Assembly (NCBI GenBank): GCA_946414825.1 | Contig: CAMKQB010000006.1 | Location: forward strand, 1 to 46,723 | Direction of reading: 5' to 3' | Origin: an uncultured Lachnospiraceae bacterium | Lineage (GTDB): Bacteria; Bacillota; Clostridia; Lachnospirales; Lachnospiraceae | Length of the DNA stretch: 46,723 bases | Shown: positions 15,148-29,425 of the stretch, piece by piece | Position numbering within the stretch: the first letter of the stretch is position 1 | Layout: each line of letters begins with the position of its first letter | The notes under the pieces: generated by a model | Databases searched by the model: none | What the model was told of the DNA's origin: nothing | The model's input: only the letters and a program-made list of their open reading frames with translations | Translations under genes and position numbers: made by a program

Positions 15148-16377
15148 ATGGGAGATGTATATGTAGAGTTTTTTTCAGATGAAGCTCTTGAAAATGTAAT
15201 GTGTATGCTTCAGTACAAGCCTGAACGCATAGTATATCTAGGTCATAAATCAACAATGGTCACCAGAAAAATCAAGAGTCTGACCAATTTCGCAAAAATT
15301 AAATCACCAAAGACTGAGCTCGAATTCATTGAAGTTCCAAGAGATGACCTTGAGGAATGTATAGCAGCCCTCACTTCAATTGCGGATAGATATCCGGATG
15401 CCTACTATGAGCTGACTGGCGGCGGAGAAATGATTCTTATCGCATTTGGCTACTTAAGCGCTGCACGTAAGCTACGCACTCTGCGTATAGATCCATATAC
15501 AGGTCTTGAAATCAATATGGAGCCTGGCGGAACTCCTACTCAACATCGAGATAACATTCAAATCACAGTAAAGGAAAATATAATACTGCACGGCGGACAG
15601 CTCACAAGACAAACCGGAAACTACGCCACATGGAGCTTCACAGAAGAATTTAAGAGCGATATAAGAGCTATTTGGGGCATAGCAAGAAGTCTACGTCACA
15701 AATGGAACAGCTACTGCTCTATTATAGAAGATGTCCTCAAGGACAATCCTTGCAACGAATACGGCCAGTATTCCCTCCCTAAATCTATGCTCAGAGACTC
15801 TGCCATCCTTTTTGCAAAGCTGAATGGCATAGGAATGCTCCGCGATTATAAAACAGATAACAAGAGAGTTAAGTTTAGATTCAAGAACGAATCTATCAGG
15901 AATATAGTCACAAAAACCGGTAATATCCTGGAACTTCATGTATATGAAGTAGCCTCAAGAAGGTCAGACATTTTCACTGATGAGATAATTGGTGCCATGA
16001 TCGACTGGAACGGCGATAAGTCCGAGGAAGAAAAACAGGTATTCTATTCTGATTATCAGAGATATATGAATGCTAGTTATGATACCTTAAATGAAATAGA
16101 TGTCATACTTATGCAGTCCTGTACACCTATATTCATTTCCTGTAAAAGCGGAAAAGCGAGCAGCAATTCCCTGCATGAGCTGGAAACTGTCACTCGCCGT
16201 TTTGGTGGTAAGTATGCATGCAAGGCTCTGGCAATGGCTATGCCTTGCGATAATACCTCCAGCGGCACCTCCTTCTTCAAGCAGCGTGCAAAGGAGATGC
16301 ACATCTGGGTAATTGACAATATTTATTCTATGACTGATGAGGAGCTGCTGCAGAAGCTGCTGAAGCTTCATAACTAA
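15148..16377 (+). CDS. CARF-domain nuclease-like protein (DUF1887, Can2/Card1-like)
   Basis: This 409-aa protein resembles the Can2/Card1 effectors that are activated by cyclic oligoadenylates. The N-terminal 140 residues look like a CARF domain: strand-loop LGHKST at 31-36 and the signature-like YELTGGGEMI at 87-96. A linker with winged-helix character follows. The C-terminal part (about 260-400) fits a PD-(D/E)xK nuclease: E263 or E267, D318 in NEIDVIL, then FISCKSGK with K333 and Q379 nearby. The acidic residue usual two before the Lys is Ser331 here. AAAGGAGG precedes the ATG. There are no cas genes or repeats in the window. Its 3' end overlaps dnaB by 50 bp in the opposite direction. Confidence 0.82.
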   Translation: MGDVYVEFFSDEALENVMCMLQYKPERIVYLGHKSTMVTRKIKSLTNFAKIKSPKTELEFIEVPRDDLEECIAALTSIADRYPDAYYELTGGGEMILIAFGYLSAARKLRTLRIDPYTGLEINMEPGGTPTQHRDNIQITVKENIILHGGQLTRQTGNYATWSFTEEFKSDIRAIWGIARSLRHKWNSYCSIIEDVLKDNPCNEYGQYSLPKSMLRDSAILFAKLNGIGMLRDYKTDNKRVKFRFKNESIRNIVTKTGNILELHVYEVASRRSDIFTDEIIGAMIDWNGDKSEEEKQVFYSDYQRYMNASYDTLNEIDVILMQSCTPIFISCKSGKASSNSLHELETVTRRFGGKYACKALAMAMPCDNTSSGTSFFKQRAKEMHIWVIDNIYSMTDEELLQKLLKLHN

Positions 16378-23146: not shown

Positions 23147-23980
23147 TTAGATAGCCTGCTCACGGAAATCATCCTTGAGTTCACTAAGAATGATATCCAT
23201 ACGTTTGTCATAGTCAGCCATGTCCTTATTCATCTTGTTGTAGGCTGCTCTTTGCAGCATTGCAAAGATGGTCATTTCACGGACATCATCCTTAGAATCT
23301 CCGATTTCTGTCATAATTTCCTCCAGGTACTCATCCTCGAGTCCCATGTGACGAATCTCTGTTCTAAGGGAGGCTGTATCTCCTGTTATAGCTACTATAT
23401 AGAAATAGCTTCTAAGTGAATCAGGATTGTTATTCAACTCGTAAGCCTTCAGGAAGAAGGCCTTAGCATCATCCAGATCCATGTTGTTTGCCGCCGCAAC
23501 TGCTCTGTTGTGATATATATTTCCAAGGAAGACTGGATCTGTCGAATCATCTGTATCCTGAATCATATCATCGTAGAAGGTGGCTGCCTTGATATATCTT
23601 CGATAAGCCAGATATCCATCAGCCTTAAGCTTTGCCTTCTGGAGTTTATCGAGCTTACGGTATTTCTGCCATGCTTCTGTATAGGACTTTATCTCATCAA
23701 CACTGTAATAATCGCCTGCACTAAGTATCTCTATCAGAAGGTCCTGCGCATATGCCGTCTTGTTCATAAGACCAACCAGTCTGTCTGCCAGGTCTTCCAT
23801 GCCGAGTTCATCTCTGATCCAGTCGAACAGCTTCTCTGAAAGAGCCGACTTACTGATCAGCACCGTGTTGTTATAGATATAGAAGCATAACTCCTCATAT
23901 GTATATATCTCAACCTTTGTGTTGAGGAATGTGAAAGGAGTTTCTGCAGTTTTGGTTGTACATAATATCAACTGTGACAT
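23147..23980 (-). CDS. TPR-like helical protein of the DUF5716/DUF5717 operon
   Basis: This 277-aa protein is not recognised as a named family. It lacks a signal peptide and membrane segment, so it is probably cytoplasmic. Residues 1-60 look like a small mixed fold (TKVEIYTYEELCFYIYNNTV). From about 100 on it is helical, with a tetratricopeptide-like pair around 145-190 (GNIYHNRAVAAANNMDLDDAKAF...). The C-terminal 70 residues are charged helices. It overlaps the actin/Hsp70-like gene by one base (TAATG), so the two are translationally coupled and their products probably act together. Its role could be a scaffold or co-chaperone-like adaptor; that is inference. Confidence 0.75.
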   Translation of the reverse strand: MSQLILCTTKTAETPFTFLNTKVEIYTYEELCFYIYNNTVLISKSALSEKLFDWIRDELGMEDLADRLVGLMNKTAYAQDLLIEILSAGDYYSVDEIKSYTEAWQKYRKLDKLQKAKLKADGYLAYRRYIKAATFYDDMIQDTDDSTDPVFLGNIYHNRAVAAANNMDLDDAKAFFLKAYELNNNPDSLRSYFYIVAITGDTASLRTEIRHMGLEDEYLEEIMTEIGDSKDDVREMTIFAMLQRAAYNKMNKDMADYDKRMDIILSELKDDFREQAI

Positions 23981-25233
23981 TAGATTATGAACTCCTTTCT
24001 ATATATTTTGTTTGTAGTCGGATAGAGCTTTCCAAAGCCTAGGTCTCTAATGATAACCGCTCCTTCTTTAGGGCTGTCAAACTCAACTTCCAGGCTAACC
24101 TTTGTCGTCTTATTCGGACGTTTTGGAAGGCCATGTATTCTGACGGTTTCTCTCTTCTCTTCTCCGGTTTTATGGTTTCGATAGATGATTGTTATGTTAT
24201 CTGTATCATCTAATATTACATTTAGCTGACCATGTGTGTTGTACCACTGTTTACCGCCGGAAACAATAGGAACAAATGTATCCTTCTCGTCATCGAGAGT
24301 TATACCGATGTCTGCCAGAACGTTTTCCTTTGTTTCCACAAAGAAGTCCTCGTAGAATGCCATATATTCGCCGCCGACAGCTCTGTAGCAGGCACCCTTG
24401 GTGTAGATATTCTGACCAACGAATACTCTCCTTCCCTGGCATAGGACATTTGTGGACTTCTTCATCCACTTATTTGAGAAGCCTACTCCTGTAAGGAATA
24501 CCGCAGATATATAGGCTTTCTTGCCTTCGTACTCAGCTATCTTCGCAAATTCCACATCCATCTGGTAGGTATCGTTGCCGAACTTCGACAAAGACATCTG
24601 CTGTGTATAGTCCTCATGAATCACATTTATAGTTTTAGGTTCCTTATTCTTGGAAATGTCTATTCTATAGTAATTAAGGCCGTCAGCACTGTAATCATAG
24701 AGTGCCACACTATTATTCCACAGCTCAGATGGCTGGTTGAATATGTAGTATAGGCCGCTGTCCAGGTGCGAGGTTATCTCGATATTATCCTTATCTATCC
24801 CCATATCCACGTACAGCTTGCTGAGAAGCTGGAAAATAAGTGGATTATAGTCATCAACTGAAATGACAAGCTTTCTGACTTCCGCCGCTTCATATCTGTA
24901 AAGGAAGGAATCTATGTGGAGCTTAACCATCATCATAAAAAGCTCCTGATAGTTATATTCTCTTCCAGCAACTGTGATTACCTCGTCACTGTTTAGATTC
25001 TCGAAGATTCCATCAACCACTGTACCATTTTCGCTGAATCTGGCTTCTGATGCCTCTCCACCAACATACCAATGCTCCGTATCGGTGCTGTAGAACAGGA
25101 TGTTTGGCATGAGGTATGTTTCCTTGTTATTCAGCTGGCTGACTGATTCCGGTTCACGCTTTATATCATTGTAGAAGGACAACTGTGTAAAATCAGAACA
25201 CAGGTCCATACCAATGTAGAAAATGTCTGCCAT
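23980..25233 (-). CDS. Actin/Hsp70-fold-like protein (DUF5716-like)
   Basis: This 417-aa cytoplasmic protein looks like a divergent member of the actin/Hsp70/sugar-kinase fold; the DUF5716 name is from memory. A phosphate-1-like loop is at the start (IGMDLCSDFTQLSFY, Asp10), a phosphate-2-like strand near 175-190 (VALYDYSADGLNYYRI), and an adenosine-motif-like TGVGFSN near 247. All three lack some of the glycines of active members (DLCS rather than DxGT; no DxGGG), so it may bind nucleotide without hydrolysing it, or not at all. The C-terminal 100 residues are beta-rich, recalling an Hsp70 substrate domain. It lies between the giant gene (31 bp) and the TPR gene. Confidence 0.72.
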   Translation of the reverse strand: MADIFYIGMDLCSDFTQLSFYNDIKREPESVSQLNNKETYLMPNILFYSTDTEHWYVGGEASEARFSENGTVVDGIFENLNSDEVITVAGREYNYQELFMMMVKLHIDSFLYRYEAAEVRKLVISVDDYNPLIFQLLSKLYVDMGIDKDNIEITSHLDSGLYYIFNQPSELWNNSVALYDYSADGLNYYRIDISKNKEPKTINVIHEDYTQQMSLSKFGNDTYQMDVEFAKIAEYEGKKAYISAVFLTGVGFSNKWMKKSTNVLCQGRRVFVGQNIYTKGACYRAVGGEYMAFYEDFFVETKENVLADIGITLDDEKDTFVPIVSGGKQWYNTHGQLNVILDDTDNITIIYRNHKTGEEKRETVRIHGLPKRPNKTTKVSLEVEFDSPKEGAVIIRDLGFGKLYPTTNKIYRKEFII

Positions 25234-25264
25234 TTGATTGGCTCCCTTCTAAATAGCTTACATA

Positions 25265-28200
25265 TTACAGTATCTTAAGTGCTTCCTCAAACAGATGCAC
25301 AGTATTGATATAAACATCCAGATCCTCGAGAAGCTCTTTATCCTTACGCATTTCCTGCTTAACAAGCATGGAGTTGATTCTCTCGAATCTGCTAAGGCTC
25401 TTGCCGCCGAAGGTCTTCTTCTTAAGAACTTCACTTTCGATAATCTTGGCATTTCCATTTGGATCATCCTCGATGGAGTATACCAGGCGCTCACCGTGGA
25501 ATACAACGAACTCGAGAACATATACACCGCTGACCACTTCGTTCATTCTTCGTCTCTCGGTCTTCATCTTGTTTCTCGTTCCTGTATCGAAGCTGAACTT
25601 AGCATACACCTGACGATAACTGTCTGACTTGTAAACCAGATAGGTCTTGAGGAATATATCCTGTGGCAGTGCAACAAAGGATGAGAAATTCTTGAAGAAT
25701 GGAAGTATCTTACCGGCATCCACAAATTTCTCTACATTATCCACTATCCACTTTCTCTGGACATCTGAGAATCTCTCCAGCTTGCTGAAGTAAAGAAGAA
25801 GCGCCATGACTGATATCTCATCATCAATATTTCCTCTAACTACCTCTTGGAACAGAGCATCAAATATGAAGTTAGGCACCTGATCATCTCTAACCAGATA
25901 ATTATGTGCGGACAGTCTGGCAAATGCTTTAACTACGAGACCTCTGCTTCTGCCGCCGTAGTAGGTCAGGAATACATCATAGATATACTCTATATATGTA
26001 TTTGAGAACATCATCTGAGCAAGAGTATTCTCTGCCAGTGGTCCAACATCACTAACTCTATCCTTGGCCAGCTTGAACAGGTCTGCCAGCTCATCTATAC
26101 TTCCCTTGAAGTTGGATACAAGGTATCCCAGGATATTTGAGTTTACTGTACCTGTCTTGTAAAGGTTGATACAGATAGACATCAGATCTTCATTCATGAA
26201 GCCTTCTGAATCAGTAACACCATAGTCAGCCAGACGATACAGCTCGTTTACATCCAGCTCGTTGAAGCCGTAGAGCTTAACGGCCTGGAAGGCTTTGTCG
26301 AACATGTTCATATCAATAAGATATGTGATGATTGTTCTTGCATTTGCATGTGTCAGATATTCGATATCGAGTTTACCCAGGTACTTGATAAGCACGTCAG
26401 TATCCAGGTTCTCATGATAATACTCAATAATGTTAAGACATGCCTGCTGCTTATAATCATAGGATATCTCATCACACTGCATTATATCTCTTGCAGCATT
26501 TACTTCCTTAGCGCTCTTATAAGTAAATTGGCCTATGCTCTCATAATTGAAGAGCAGGACTCTATAATCTCTTGGACTATATTCCTTACAGATAGGCATG
26601 TAAGCCTTCTCATCTACTATCCTCTCAAAATGATAAGGAATAGAACCTGCGTATCTATTACCATTTTTATCCTCGAAAATGATAGAAGCATTTTCAGACA
26701 GAATCTCAACATAAGCTTCGCCATTTACAAGAGGTATTCTCTGAACGGCCTGCAGTTCTTCGTGACTTACGATTACCGCAGCAACCTTCTTGTTGTTACA
26801 AACAATCTTGCGTCTGAAAATGATATTAATCAGCTTGCCGGCATACATGGAGCTTACATTTTCCGGCTCCAGGAATTCGTCATAGATAACAGTCAGATCA
26901 TCGTTAACCTTGCCCTTGACGATCATATTCTCCATGAAGTCTTCCATTGTAGGCGCATACTCATGATATATCTTCATATGCTCAGACTTGTTGAAGATTA
27001 CATTTGCATAGAGGTATGCGAGCTCGTCCTCTGAAAGAGTGTTCTTATAATTAAGATACATCAGGACTGAAGTTGGGATGAGTTCGTATCTATCCCTATT
27101 CATACTTCTTATATAGCACTCGTTCAGGCCAATGAACTTAAGACTCTTCAGAACCGCTGCCTTGTAGAATCTATGATACTTATGATCCAGCATATTTGCG
27201 GAAATAAGCATAGAGCATATACTGGACAGGACCTCTAGATTCTCATTTTCCTTACGTGTGAGTTTCTCAGCCGCATCAGCTCTGATAGCCGCATCCAGCT
27301 TCTCGTCCGCATCCTCAATAGGAACATTATCTATTTTCTTAGCTCCTGACTTGATGGAATCGCTAAGGGAATCAATGAAGTTATCCTCTTCATCCTCATA
27401 GTCTTCTTCGTTAGAAGGGCCATCTATCTCGTCGCCATAATCCTCTTCGTCAAGATCCTCATCCTCAAGCTCATCCTCTTCTTCATCCTGCTCATAGTCC
27501 ATCGTTCCAAGCTCTGCATCCGCATGCTTACCAAACTCAAATGGAATATCCTCGAGAGACTCGTCGTCGTATTCATGGATAGAGGATATCTTAGTTGAAC
27601 CCTCTCCGGAAATAGGAGCTGAATCATAGAGTTCGCTATCATCTATTCCCTTTTCCTCAAGAACCTTACGTCTTTCGGCTCTAAGCTCATGCTCGTTCTT
27701 ATCATAGATTTCTCTCAGAACTTCAAATATCTGTTTGTCAAAATTCTTATTCTTACCAGCCAGCTTAACGAACTCCAGAAGGACCTCGTCCGATACATAT
27801 CTATGTCTAAGTCCCCACTTAATAGAGGTTATCTCATACTCAGTGAGCTTCTTAAGAAGCATAGGGTTTGAATTGAGGAGGTTACACAGCTCGAAATAAA
27901 GGATAGGGCTGTTTTCTCCCTCGTCATACATTTGAGTAAGCTCTCGATAGAGAGCATTTTTATCTTCGTTATAAGTCGAGTCAACAAATAGGAGCAGCCA
28001 GAAATAGAACATCTTCGGCTCCTGAGTGCGATAGTTTCTTCTGACAACATGTGCTGTCTTCTCAGTTACCTCATCATCCTTAAGCATCATTGCTCTCAGA
28101 TAGTTGTAGTAGCAAAGCTGCTGGTTGCCCATGCTTTCCTTATCAACATCCGCCTCAATACGCTGGAACTCCTGTTCAACCTTTGAATATTCGCCTGCCA

Positions 28201-29278
28201 GGATATTCATGTGCATGATTCCGAGACGATACATATCCTCTTCCGGTTCTATCTCATTCAGAGTCTTCAGAGCATCCATATTTACATGAACATATTCCTC
28301 TAGACTCATTCTATCCATTCTGAATTCGATGTAACTTCTGATAAGCTCAGCCTTACATCTCTTATAGTCTCTGTTTCTTCTTCTCAGTTCCTGGTTAGGA
28401 CGTGATGTAAGCGGCTTGGACAAATGAATGTCTATCTCGATTCTCTGATAGATATTCTCGATAATAAGTCTACCTGAATTCTCACCCTCCGGCACATGTT
28501 CTGGAGATATGAAAACCTGAAGCGAGCAAACATTTCCCGTAAAGTCCTTAGCAGAAATAGTCTTCTTCGCAGGAATAATGAACTCCGAATCACTTCGGAT
28601 CTCTGAAAATGTATAGCCCCAGGTATTCTTTGTTATATCTACACTTATGCTCTCCGTCTCAGTTGGCATGGCTATATCAAGCTTTGCCTTAGGAACAGAC
28701 AGAGTAACAGTTCTCTTCTTAGAAACAAGAACCAGGAACTCCTCCATAGCCTGATTAACAGAACGGCTTTCCAGAAGACTCTCATATGTATTCTTAAGAA
28801 TAGGTTCCTTGTTTATGAAGGTTCTACGGAAATCATCATTTACAAAGAGACGAGCTGCGTCGTTCCAGTTTCTTTCTGCAAGGGATGCAAACTTGAAGAG
28901 ATCATCGATTCTTTCATCGTGATGCTTAACACAAGGCTGAACAATATTGATATCGTATGGTATTCTCCATTCTCCACCGTCTGTGATTATATTAATATGA
29001 CCACGAATATTCTGGCCGGCTTCCAGACATGTAGCATCAAAAGAATACTTCACTGTGAAGTTCTTGCTAATAAAGCTGTGATCTTCAAAGCGAAGCAGAT
29101 ATCTACTATCGTAGACCATTCCCTTGATAGGATAGTCGTTCAGACTCTCTACCTGGAACTGTCCCTCATAAATAGTACCAGCCTCGATATTCATCCTAAA
29201 TTCTGTCTCGGAAATAAAGACCTCAGGACGTTCTACCTTGAACTGGCCCTTTGCATATTGTTCAACTATTGCCTTCAT
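25265..29278 (-). CDS. Giant 1337-aa DUF5717-like protein of unknown function
   Basis: No catalytic motif, signal peptide or membrane segment is visible. Residues about 1-115 and 180-290 are beta-rich and may be Ig-like sandwich domains (IYEGQFQVESLNDYPIKG). From about 300 to 560 the chain is helical with TPR-like spacing. A strongly acidic, disordered-looking segment spans about 594-640 (Glu/Asp runs). The second half is mainly helical, with a beta insertion around 850-890, and ends in a predicted coiled coil. The DUF5717 label is from memory of Lachnospiraceae annotations. It opens a three-gene operon with the actin/Hsp70-like and TPR-like genes. A large cytoplasmic scaffold is the simplest guess. 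Confidence 0.75.
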   Translation of the reverse strand: MKAIVEQYAKGQFKVERPEVFISETEFRMNIEAGTIYEGQFQVESLNDYPIKGMVYDSRYLLRFEDHSFISKNFTVKYSFDATCLEAGQNIRGHINIITDGGEWRIPYDINIVQPCVKHHDERIDDLFKFASLAERNWNDAARLFVNDDFRRTFINKEPILKNTYESLLESRSVNQAMEEFLVLVSKKRTVTLSVPKAKLDIAMPTETESISVDITKNTWGYTFSEIRSDSEFIIPAKKTISAKDFTGNVCSLQVFISPEHVPEGENSGRLIIENIYQRIEIDIHLSKPLTSRPNQELRRRNRDYKRCKAELIRSYIEFRMDRMSLEEYVHVNMDALKTLNEIEPEEDMYRLGIMHMNILAGEYSKVEQEFQRIEADVDKESMGNQQLCYYNYLRAMMLKDDEVTEKTAHVVRRNYRTQEPKMFYFWLLLFVDSTYNEDKNALYRELTQMYDEGENSPILYFELCNLLNSNPMLLKKLTEYEITSIKWGLRHRYVSDEVLLEFVKLAGKNKNFDKQIFEVLREIYDKNEHELRAERRKVLEEKGIDDSELYDSAPISGEGSTKISSIHEYDDESLEDIPFEFGKHADAELGTMDYEQDEEEDELEDEDLDEEDYGDEIDGPSNEEDYEDEEDNFIDSLSDSIKSGAKKIDNVPIEDADEKLDAAIRADAAEKLTRKENENLEVLSSICSMLISANMLDHKYHRFYKAAVLKSLKFIGLNECYIRSMNRDRYELIPTSVLMYLNYKNTLSEDELAYLYANVIFNKSEHMKIYHEYAPTMEDFMENMIVKGKVNDDLTVIYDEFLEPENVSSMYAGKLINIIFRRKIVCNNKKVAAVIVSHEELQAVQRIPLVNGEAYVEILSENASIIFEDKNGNRYAGSIPYHFERIVDEKAYMPICKEYSPRDYRVLLFNYESIGQFTYKSAKEVNAARDIMQCDEISYDYKQQACLNIIEYYHENLDTDVLIKYLGKLDIEYLTHANARTIITYLIDMNMFDKAFQAVKLYGFNELDVNELYRLADYGVTDSEGFMNEDLMSICINLYKTGTVNSNILGYLVSNFKGSIDELADLFKLAKDRVSDVGPLAENTLAQMMFSNTYIEYIYDVFLTYYGGRSRGLVVKAFARLSAHNYLVRDDQVPNFIFDALFQEVVRGNIDDEISVMALLLYFSKLERFSDVQRKWIVDNVEKFVDAGKILPFFKNFSSFVALPQDIFLKTYLVYKSDSYRQVYAKFSFDTGTRNKMKTERRRMNEVVSGVYVLEFVVFHGERLVYSIEDDPNGNAKIIESEVLKKKTFGGKSLSRFERINSMLVKQEMRKDKELLEDLDVYINTVHLFEEALKIL

Positions 29279-29351: not shown

Positions 29352-29390
29352 ATTTACTGGTTCAAGAAACTAGTAAATCATCTTATTATA
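29352..29390 (-). promoter_or_regulatory. Promoter and inverted repeat of the DUF5717 operon
   Basis: TATAAT on the minus strand lies at 29385-29390, about 107 bp before ATG 29278; the -35 is weak. Just downstream of it an 11-bp inverted repeat (29352-29362 with 29368-29378, one mismatch) would fall at the start of the leader, a plausible operator. The divergent aminotransferase shares the gap 29279-29425. Confidence 0.42.
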
Positions 29391-29425
29391 TCAAATAATA
29401 GTTTGTTTTTAAAGGAAAAAGTATC

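Follow-up and report, generated by a model that had tools for sequence, protein, structure and literature searches.

The 46,723-nucleotide window analysed here (contig CAMKQB010000006.1 of an uncultured Lachnospiraceae bacterium; all coordinates are positions in this whole stretch) carries three minus-strand genes, each with an ATG start, that encode a 1337-aa giant scaffold (gene 1, 25265..29278), a 417-aa protein termed Hsp70-B (gene 2, 23980..25233) and a 277-aa tetratricopeptide repeat (TPR) partner (gene 3, 23147..23980). This layout, first described from the sequence alone, was confirmed, with a gap of 31 bp followed by a junction of one shared base (TAATG). By computation we found homology of the 417-aa protein to Hsp70, loss of its catalytic motifs, a recurrent gene order, and reduction of the trio from a larger locus. 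In our judgement the chances are about equal that the three products make up a cytoplasmic complex, with a dead Hsp70 at its base, a TPR protein as adaptor and the giant as scaffold, which was reduced from a more extensive Hsp70 machine of the Lachnospirales order and would bind clients independently of ATP.

Hsp70 origin and motif loss of the 417-aa protein

The sequence-only reading had taken the 417-aa protein for a degenerate member of the Hsp70/actin type, and both sequence profiles and a fold search bore this out. A 35-row Hsp70-B family profile matched DnaK in the PDB at E 5.8e-19, spanning the nucleotide-binding domain (NBD) and the β part of the substrate-binding domain (SBDβ), to the end of which it aligned. 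A profile made of Lachnospiraceae members only matched eight PDB chains, all of them DnaK. Further, hhalign aligned Hsp70-B with its paralogue Hsp70-A at E 1.7e-8, and an Hsp70-B of another family matched both DUF5716 (2e-33) and HSP70 (2e-14) in Pfam. The Foldseek check gave DnaK as the best match (6.8e-12), and all 50 matches listed were Hsp70s. These results demonstrated that the protein is homologous to Hsp70 by its NBD and SBDβ. It comprises lobe I of the NBD, a truncated lobe II and SBDβ, with no lid; the SBDβ-like C-terminal part (approximately residues 320-417, 23983..24276, minus strand, boundary approximate) is marked by a conserved GLPKRP...DxGFG stretch.

The nucleotide loops that had been called degenerate are indeed so. 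In the alignment, the phosphate-1 loop reads DLCS at residues 10-13 (25195..25206, minus strand) and the adenosine-loop region TGVGF at residues 248-252 (24478..24492, minus strand). The catalytic-lysine column (placed, like E171, by DnaK numbering) held a lysine in 0 of 42 Lachnospiraceae Hsp70-B proteins and in 0 of 11 from other families; the same column was lysine in the paralogues Hsp70-A (7/7), Hsp70-C (10/10) and Hsp70-D (8/8). No GGGT loop was found in the displayed Hsp70-B rows (24 Lachnospiraceae, 11 other), the alignment lacked the equivalent of DnaK residues 189-263 of lobe II, and no SBDα lid was detected, as nothing aligned past DnaK residue 526 in most rows. At the level of sequence, these observations indicated that Hsp70-B is catalytically dead, a predicted non-ATPase.

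The ratios of nonsynonymous to synonymous substitution rates (dN/dS) against same-genus orthologues were 0.01 for Hsp70-B (a single usable comparison, the others being saturated), 0.02-0.052 for the TPR partner, 0.019-0.055 for the scaffold and 0.03-0.093 for valS. Between genera, Hsp70-B identity was 22-32%. The dN/dS values indicate that a protein with no working catalytic site is held under strong selection within the genus.

The larger multi-Hsp70 cluster and the direction of change

In other families of Lachnospirales, as many as eight genes are clustered at this locus. In detail, the cluster at L064 encodes scaffold N (388 aa), scaffold C (900 aa), Hsp70-A (559 aa) and a GrpE-domain protein (630 aa), followed by Hsp70-B (523 aa), Hsp70-C (546 aa), Hsp70-D with a C-terminal VWA domain (691 aa) and a TPR protein (387 aa). 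Among the 12 other-family genomes with DUF5717, Hsp70-A was present in 11 and a GrpE domain within the cluster in 10. The parts lay in three places in genome G040 (N-C-A; GrpE-B; C-D-TPR), and G051 carried scaffold N and C and Hsp70-B, with no Hsp70-A, C or D seen. Since both phosphate-loop motifs, like the catalytic lysine, were kept in all examined rows of Hsp70-A, C and D (7, 10 and 8), these three are predicted to be active ATPases beside the inactive Hsp70-B.

The scaffold and the TPR protein also differ between the two forms of the locus. In the other families the N part (~390 aa) and the C part (~900 aa) of the scaffold are usually two genes, while they form a single gene in Lachnospiraceae; an N-C fusion also occurs in G047. 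The larger proteins of the trio matched the DUF5716/DUF5717 models PF18980 (DUF5716_C), PF18984 (DUF5717_N) and PF18983 (DUF5717) above the curated cut-offs (E 5e-98, 6e-277 and 4e-64), the first in Hsp70-B and the other two in the scaffold. Against the PDB, a profile of the scaffold C part gave no match better than E 0.076, and the β-rich N-terminal domains and helical repeats proposed for the giant from its sequence are putative. The Glu/Asp-rich segment already noticed in the giant is real and, by composition and alignment, covers residues 530-679 with 38% Asp/Glu (27242..27691, minus strand). It was missing from more than 70% of 36 other-genus Lachnospiraceae scaffolds, and by this alignment the insert is a peculiarity of the window's genus in the sample examined.

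In the 277-aa protein, an N-terminal domain of ~110 aa is followed by roughly two TPRs and then a helix at the C-terminus. Its TPR character, proposed from the sequence alone, was supported through longer orthologues: the window protein itself gave just a sub-threshold TPR match in Pfam (PF13181, E 0.014), while the L064 orthologue matched TPR_19 at 2.7e-20. The two align through the repeats, and the family profile matched TPR chains. A middle block of ~110 aa, present in the 383-397-aa orthologues of other families, was missing in 17 of 17 aligned Lachnospiraceae rows.

Trees were used to infer which way the locus had changed. One tree of 61 proteins was rooted with DnaK and used 23 of the 42 Lachnospiraceae Hsp70-B rows; in it, Hsp70-A, C and D each formed one group and Hsp70-B was the sister of Hsp70-C. 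Lachnospiraceae Hsp70-B formed one group, joined to the Hsp70-B of L063, a full-cluster genome. A more careful tree of 31 Hsp70-B and Hsp70-C rows, which left out B_L072, B_L073, the A, D and DnaK rows and some Lachnospiraceae rows, agreed with it, and the approximately unbiased (AU) test rejected the other-family Hsp70-B proteins as one clade (p 7.1e-5). L107 was dropped from alignment A2 and L168 from A4. Because the trees nest the Lachnospiraceae form inside the diversity of the larger cluster, the Lachnospiraceae trio is a reduced machine. Hsp70-C was lost in Lachnospiraceae, since the split between Hsp70-B and Hsp70-C predates Lachnospiraceae Hsp70-B, and by parsimony Hsp70-A and D were probably lost as well. 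The ancestor would have possessed scaffold N and C, Hsp70-A, the GrpE-domain protein, Hsp70-B, Hsp70-C, the VWA-bearing Hsp70-D and the TPR protein. On the line to Lachnospiraceae, the locus would have shed its ATP-competent Hsp70s together with the GrpE-domain protein, scaffold N and C would have joined into one gene, the TPR protein would have become shorter and Hsp70-B would have lost part of lobe II.

Cluster-type Hsp70s located elsewhere in Lachnospiraceae genomes were considered and rejected on the matches listed, which for a set of 21 Lachnospiraceae genomes did not include all weak ones. Five further Hsp70 loci of such genomes each scored best against the DnaK profile (165-401 bits); cluster Hsp70s, most of them profile members, scored 959-1411 bits against their own profile. 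Separately, the window's own genome encodes a second, DnaK-like Hsp70 of 563 aa (L193:1983-3674), and a 479-aa protein from a different contig of it carries a GrpE domain (L194:3103-4542). Of five other genomes of the genus that were searched, three had GrpE-bearing frames of 472-561 aa, and one further Lachnospiraceae locus (L190:435-6462) encodes a 508-aa protein, a 599-aa DnaK-like Hsp70 and a 426-aa protein that starts like a J-domain.

Distribution, gene order and neighbourhood of the trio

Of 61 genomes sampled from the genus and the order, 46 had a match to the DUF5716 model and 48 to the DUF5717 model, against 0 of 14 control genomes. The two genomes with a scaffold and no Hsp70-B match were G041, whose contig ends within the cluster, and G003, in which the scaffold match stops short, perhaps at a contig end. 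Across Lachnospiraceae, the scaffold (DUF5717) was detected in 147 of 150 genomes and 146 of 149 genera, at one locus per genome. A class-wide sample gave PF18983 in 18 of 392 genomes, all Lachnospiraceae, and a phylum-wide sample gave matches to the scaffold-C profile in 6 of 398, five of them from Lachnospiraceae; the sixth was marginal, at E 6.5e-4 over 86 positions. Neither sample held a clear scaffold match outside this family.

Routine separation of the three genes would have counted against the sequence-only reading and was not seen. Within the genus, the Hsp70-B and TPR genes were neighbours at every one of 32 loci (in L039, tblastn located the TPR gene), and the scaffold preceded them at 30, the other two loci (L059, L061) beginning inside Hsp70-B. 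Similarly, at 41 other-genus loci hand-picked from the 145 Lachnospiraceae genomes with a scaffold match, the trio was contiguous on one strand in 39. Of the two exceptions, L151 has Hsp70-B and the TPR protein in a single natural reading frame of 684 aa, and G090 has the pair side by side but away from the scaffold. From these natural fusions (Hsp70-B with TPR, scaffold N with C) and the adjacency, we infer that the products of the three genes probably form one stable complex.

A part of the spore or flagellum was also considered and rejected. In the same 150 genomes, SpoIVA was found in 105 (104 above cut-off) and flagellin in 78, and the window's own genome matched neither; set against the 147 with DUF5717, these counts do not tie the trio to motility or sporulation. 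Its near-universal presence, including in members with no flagellin or SpoIVA genes, suggests a housekeeping role.

Nor is a membrane anchor a core part. A gene for a coiled-coil protein with two transmembrane (TM) segments lies 3' of the TPR gene in L063, in L067 and in 15 of the 39 contiguous trios of Lachnospiraceae; it was present in five of eight tested order genomes that lack DUF5717 and in none of six same-genus genomes. In L186 and L188 it stands between a hisC-like gene and valS with the trio not there, and its adjacency to the trio is therefore an old gene order. This uncharacterised two-TM hairpin protein occurs beside valS in several families of the order, not in the window's genus (L186:6813-8009, L188:5252-6364, L067:13938-15146).

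As the sequence-only reading had stated, none of the three proteins shows a signal peptide. Since no 19-residue Kyte-Doolittle window reached the threshold of 1.6 in the 1337-, 417- or 277-aa protein, there was no sign of a signal peptide or of any other hydrophobic or membrane segment. NCBIfam gave no match above cut-offs for the trio proteins. Downstream of the trio lie valS (identified by sequence), a gene for a GdpP-type phosphodiesterase, rplI and dnaB, and upstream a divergent aminotransferase gene. A promoter-like site 5' of gene 1 (29385..29413, minus strand; TTTAAA-17-TATAAT with TG) is a candidate, because the scan yielded no more sites overall than shuffled sequences did. Elsewhere in the window, a plus-strand open reading frame of 409 aa (15148-16377) overlaps the end of the opposite-strand dnaB and had no Pfam match at E 0.001.

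Proposed mechanism, rival explanations and known systems

In the proposed mechanism, the lid-less SBDβ cleft of Hsp70-B would retain a client, or a built-in ligand, with no ATP cycle, in the manner of yeast Ssz1, the nearest working analogue, and the TPR protein and scaffold would confer specificity. The client might then be passed to an active Hsp70, which in the large cluster would be Hsp70-A, C or D, these supplying the ATP-driven step together with the GrpE-domain protein. In Lachnospiraceae, this step may be gone, or borrowed, perhaps from the general DnaK. Client holding by Hsp70-B and its hand-over to an active Hsp70 are proposed by analogy and with less confidence than the complex itself. 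As the scaffold and the dead Hsp70 occur without the ATP-competent Hsp70s of the cluster in Lachnospiraceae and, as a second lineage, in the family to which G051 belongs, it is suggested that selection keeps binding rather than ATP cycling. We hold it nearly as likely as not, with the balance slightly against, that Lachnospirales possess a dedicated multi-Hsp70 machine (four paralogues, their own GrpE-domain factor, a VWA domain, a TPR protein and a scaffold) of which Lachnospiraceae kept the dead Hsp70 and dropped the live ones, leaving an ATP-independent core complex. Such a complex would be the bacterial equivalent of Ssz1, and its indispensable components would be the pseudoenzyme and the scaffold.

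Several observations weigh against this account. The Lachnospiraceae-only profile reached just lobe I in the PDB and not SBDβ, and the AlphaFold2 model of the 417-aa protein was poor outside lobe I (mean predicted local distance difference test score, pLDDT, 52; predicted template modelling score, pTM, 0.46), with MreB scoring nearly equal to DnaK over that lobe. Both trees carried long-branch warnings. DUF5717 had no match in 3 of the 150 Lachnospiraceae genomes and in 12 of the 24 other families sampled within the order; G090 has a scaffold locus (L133) with no Hsp70-B-TPR pair, which lies together on another contig (L185); and Hsp70-D and TPR appear broken up in L063. Finally, no J-domain or DnaJ family was among the Pfam matches listed for the trio and ten cluster proteins (for the TPR protein, 25 of 29 matches), which leaves the Ssz1 analogy without the partner of Ssz1.

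Hsp110 is a eukaryotic exchange factor, and Hsp70-B might in a similar way serve as the nucleotide exchange factor for the cell's DnaK, positioned by the scaffold and TPR protein. We regard this as unlikely, because a standalone GrpE was present in 55 of 55 genomes searched, so that an exchange factor is not missing, and because of the portion of lobe II that Hsp70-B has lost. Slightly less probable still is an actin-like adaptor of a cytoskeletal or envelope structure, in the manner of MreB or FtsA, with no functional kinship to chaperones: the alignment of the SBDβ-like part to DnaK, the position of Hsp70-B as sister of a canonical Hsp70 paralogue, and the GrpE and TPR proteins of the full cluster argue against it. 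A conflict (anti-phage) system akin to the GAP1-N2 GTPase systems, in which, according to PMC7159879, ~14% of neighbourhoods carry HSP70 and GrpE and a subset a second HSP70 with no peptide-binding domain, is very improbable, as one locus per genome in nearly every member with a steady neighbourhood is unlike a defence island, PADLOC had no match for the trio (and generic matches only for Hsp70-D and TPR of L064, Hsp70-C being outside that scan), and no GTPase was among the Pfam matches listed for trio and cluster proteins. Those matches named no GAP1-N2 component either, in a Pfam copy that may lack GAP1 models.

For a reduced complex centred on a dead Hsp70, known families provide names and partial parallels. 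The 417- and 1337-aa proteins belong clearly to Pfam DUF5716 and DUF5717, families that can be named yet have no function assigned; to these names the present analysis adds descent from Hsp70, a TPR partner and the larger cluster. A literature search retrieved no paper on DUF5716, DUF5717 or the cluster, the sole mention of DUF5716 being in PMC8115291, which deals with a different topic. The trio occurs in nearly all sampled genera of a major gut family, yet lacks a described function. The present results give structural meaning to three DUF models and offer a family-wide target for genetics, and the history of the trio makes it testable whether an Hsp70 can do its main job as a pseudoenzyme.

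In their parts list, the GAP1-N2 GTPase-centred systems come nearest, with similar components (HSP70, GrpE, FNIII-TPR; PMC7159879), but the trio is family-wide rather than patchy. Hsp70-B shares NBD and SBDβ homology with DnaK/Hsp70 but has neither the catalytic lysine nor the GGGT loop, no full lobe II and no lid. Yeast Ssz1, of the ribosome-associated complex (RAC), is able to bind ATP and has the J-protein Zuo1 as its partner, whereas the loops of Hsp70-B are more decayed, and RAC family membership is not claimed because no J-domain was listed for the cluster. According to PMC7083937, Ssz1 has no lid, does not hydrolyse ATP, keeps SBDβ and works in a fixed complex; it binds nascent chains, and its complex feeds an active Hsp70. 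Hsp70-B resembles Ssz1 in being lid-less and in having kept SBDβ and, by prediction, in not hydrolysing ATP and in working within a fixed complex.

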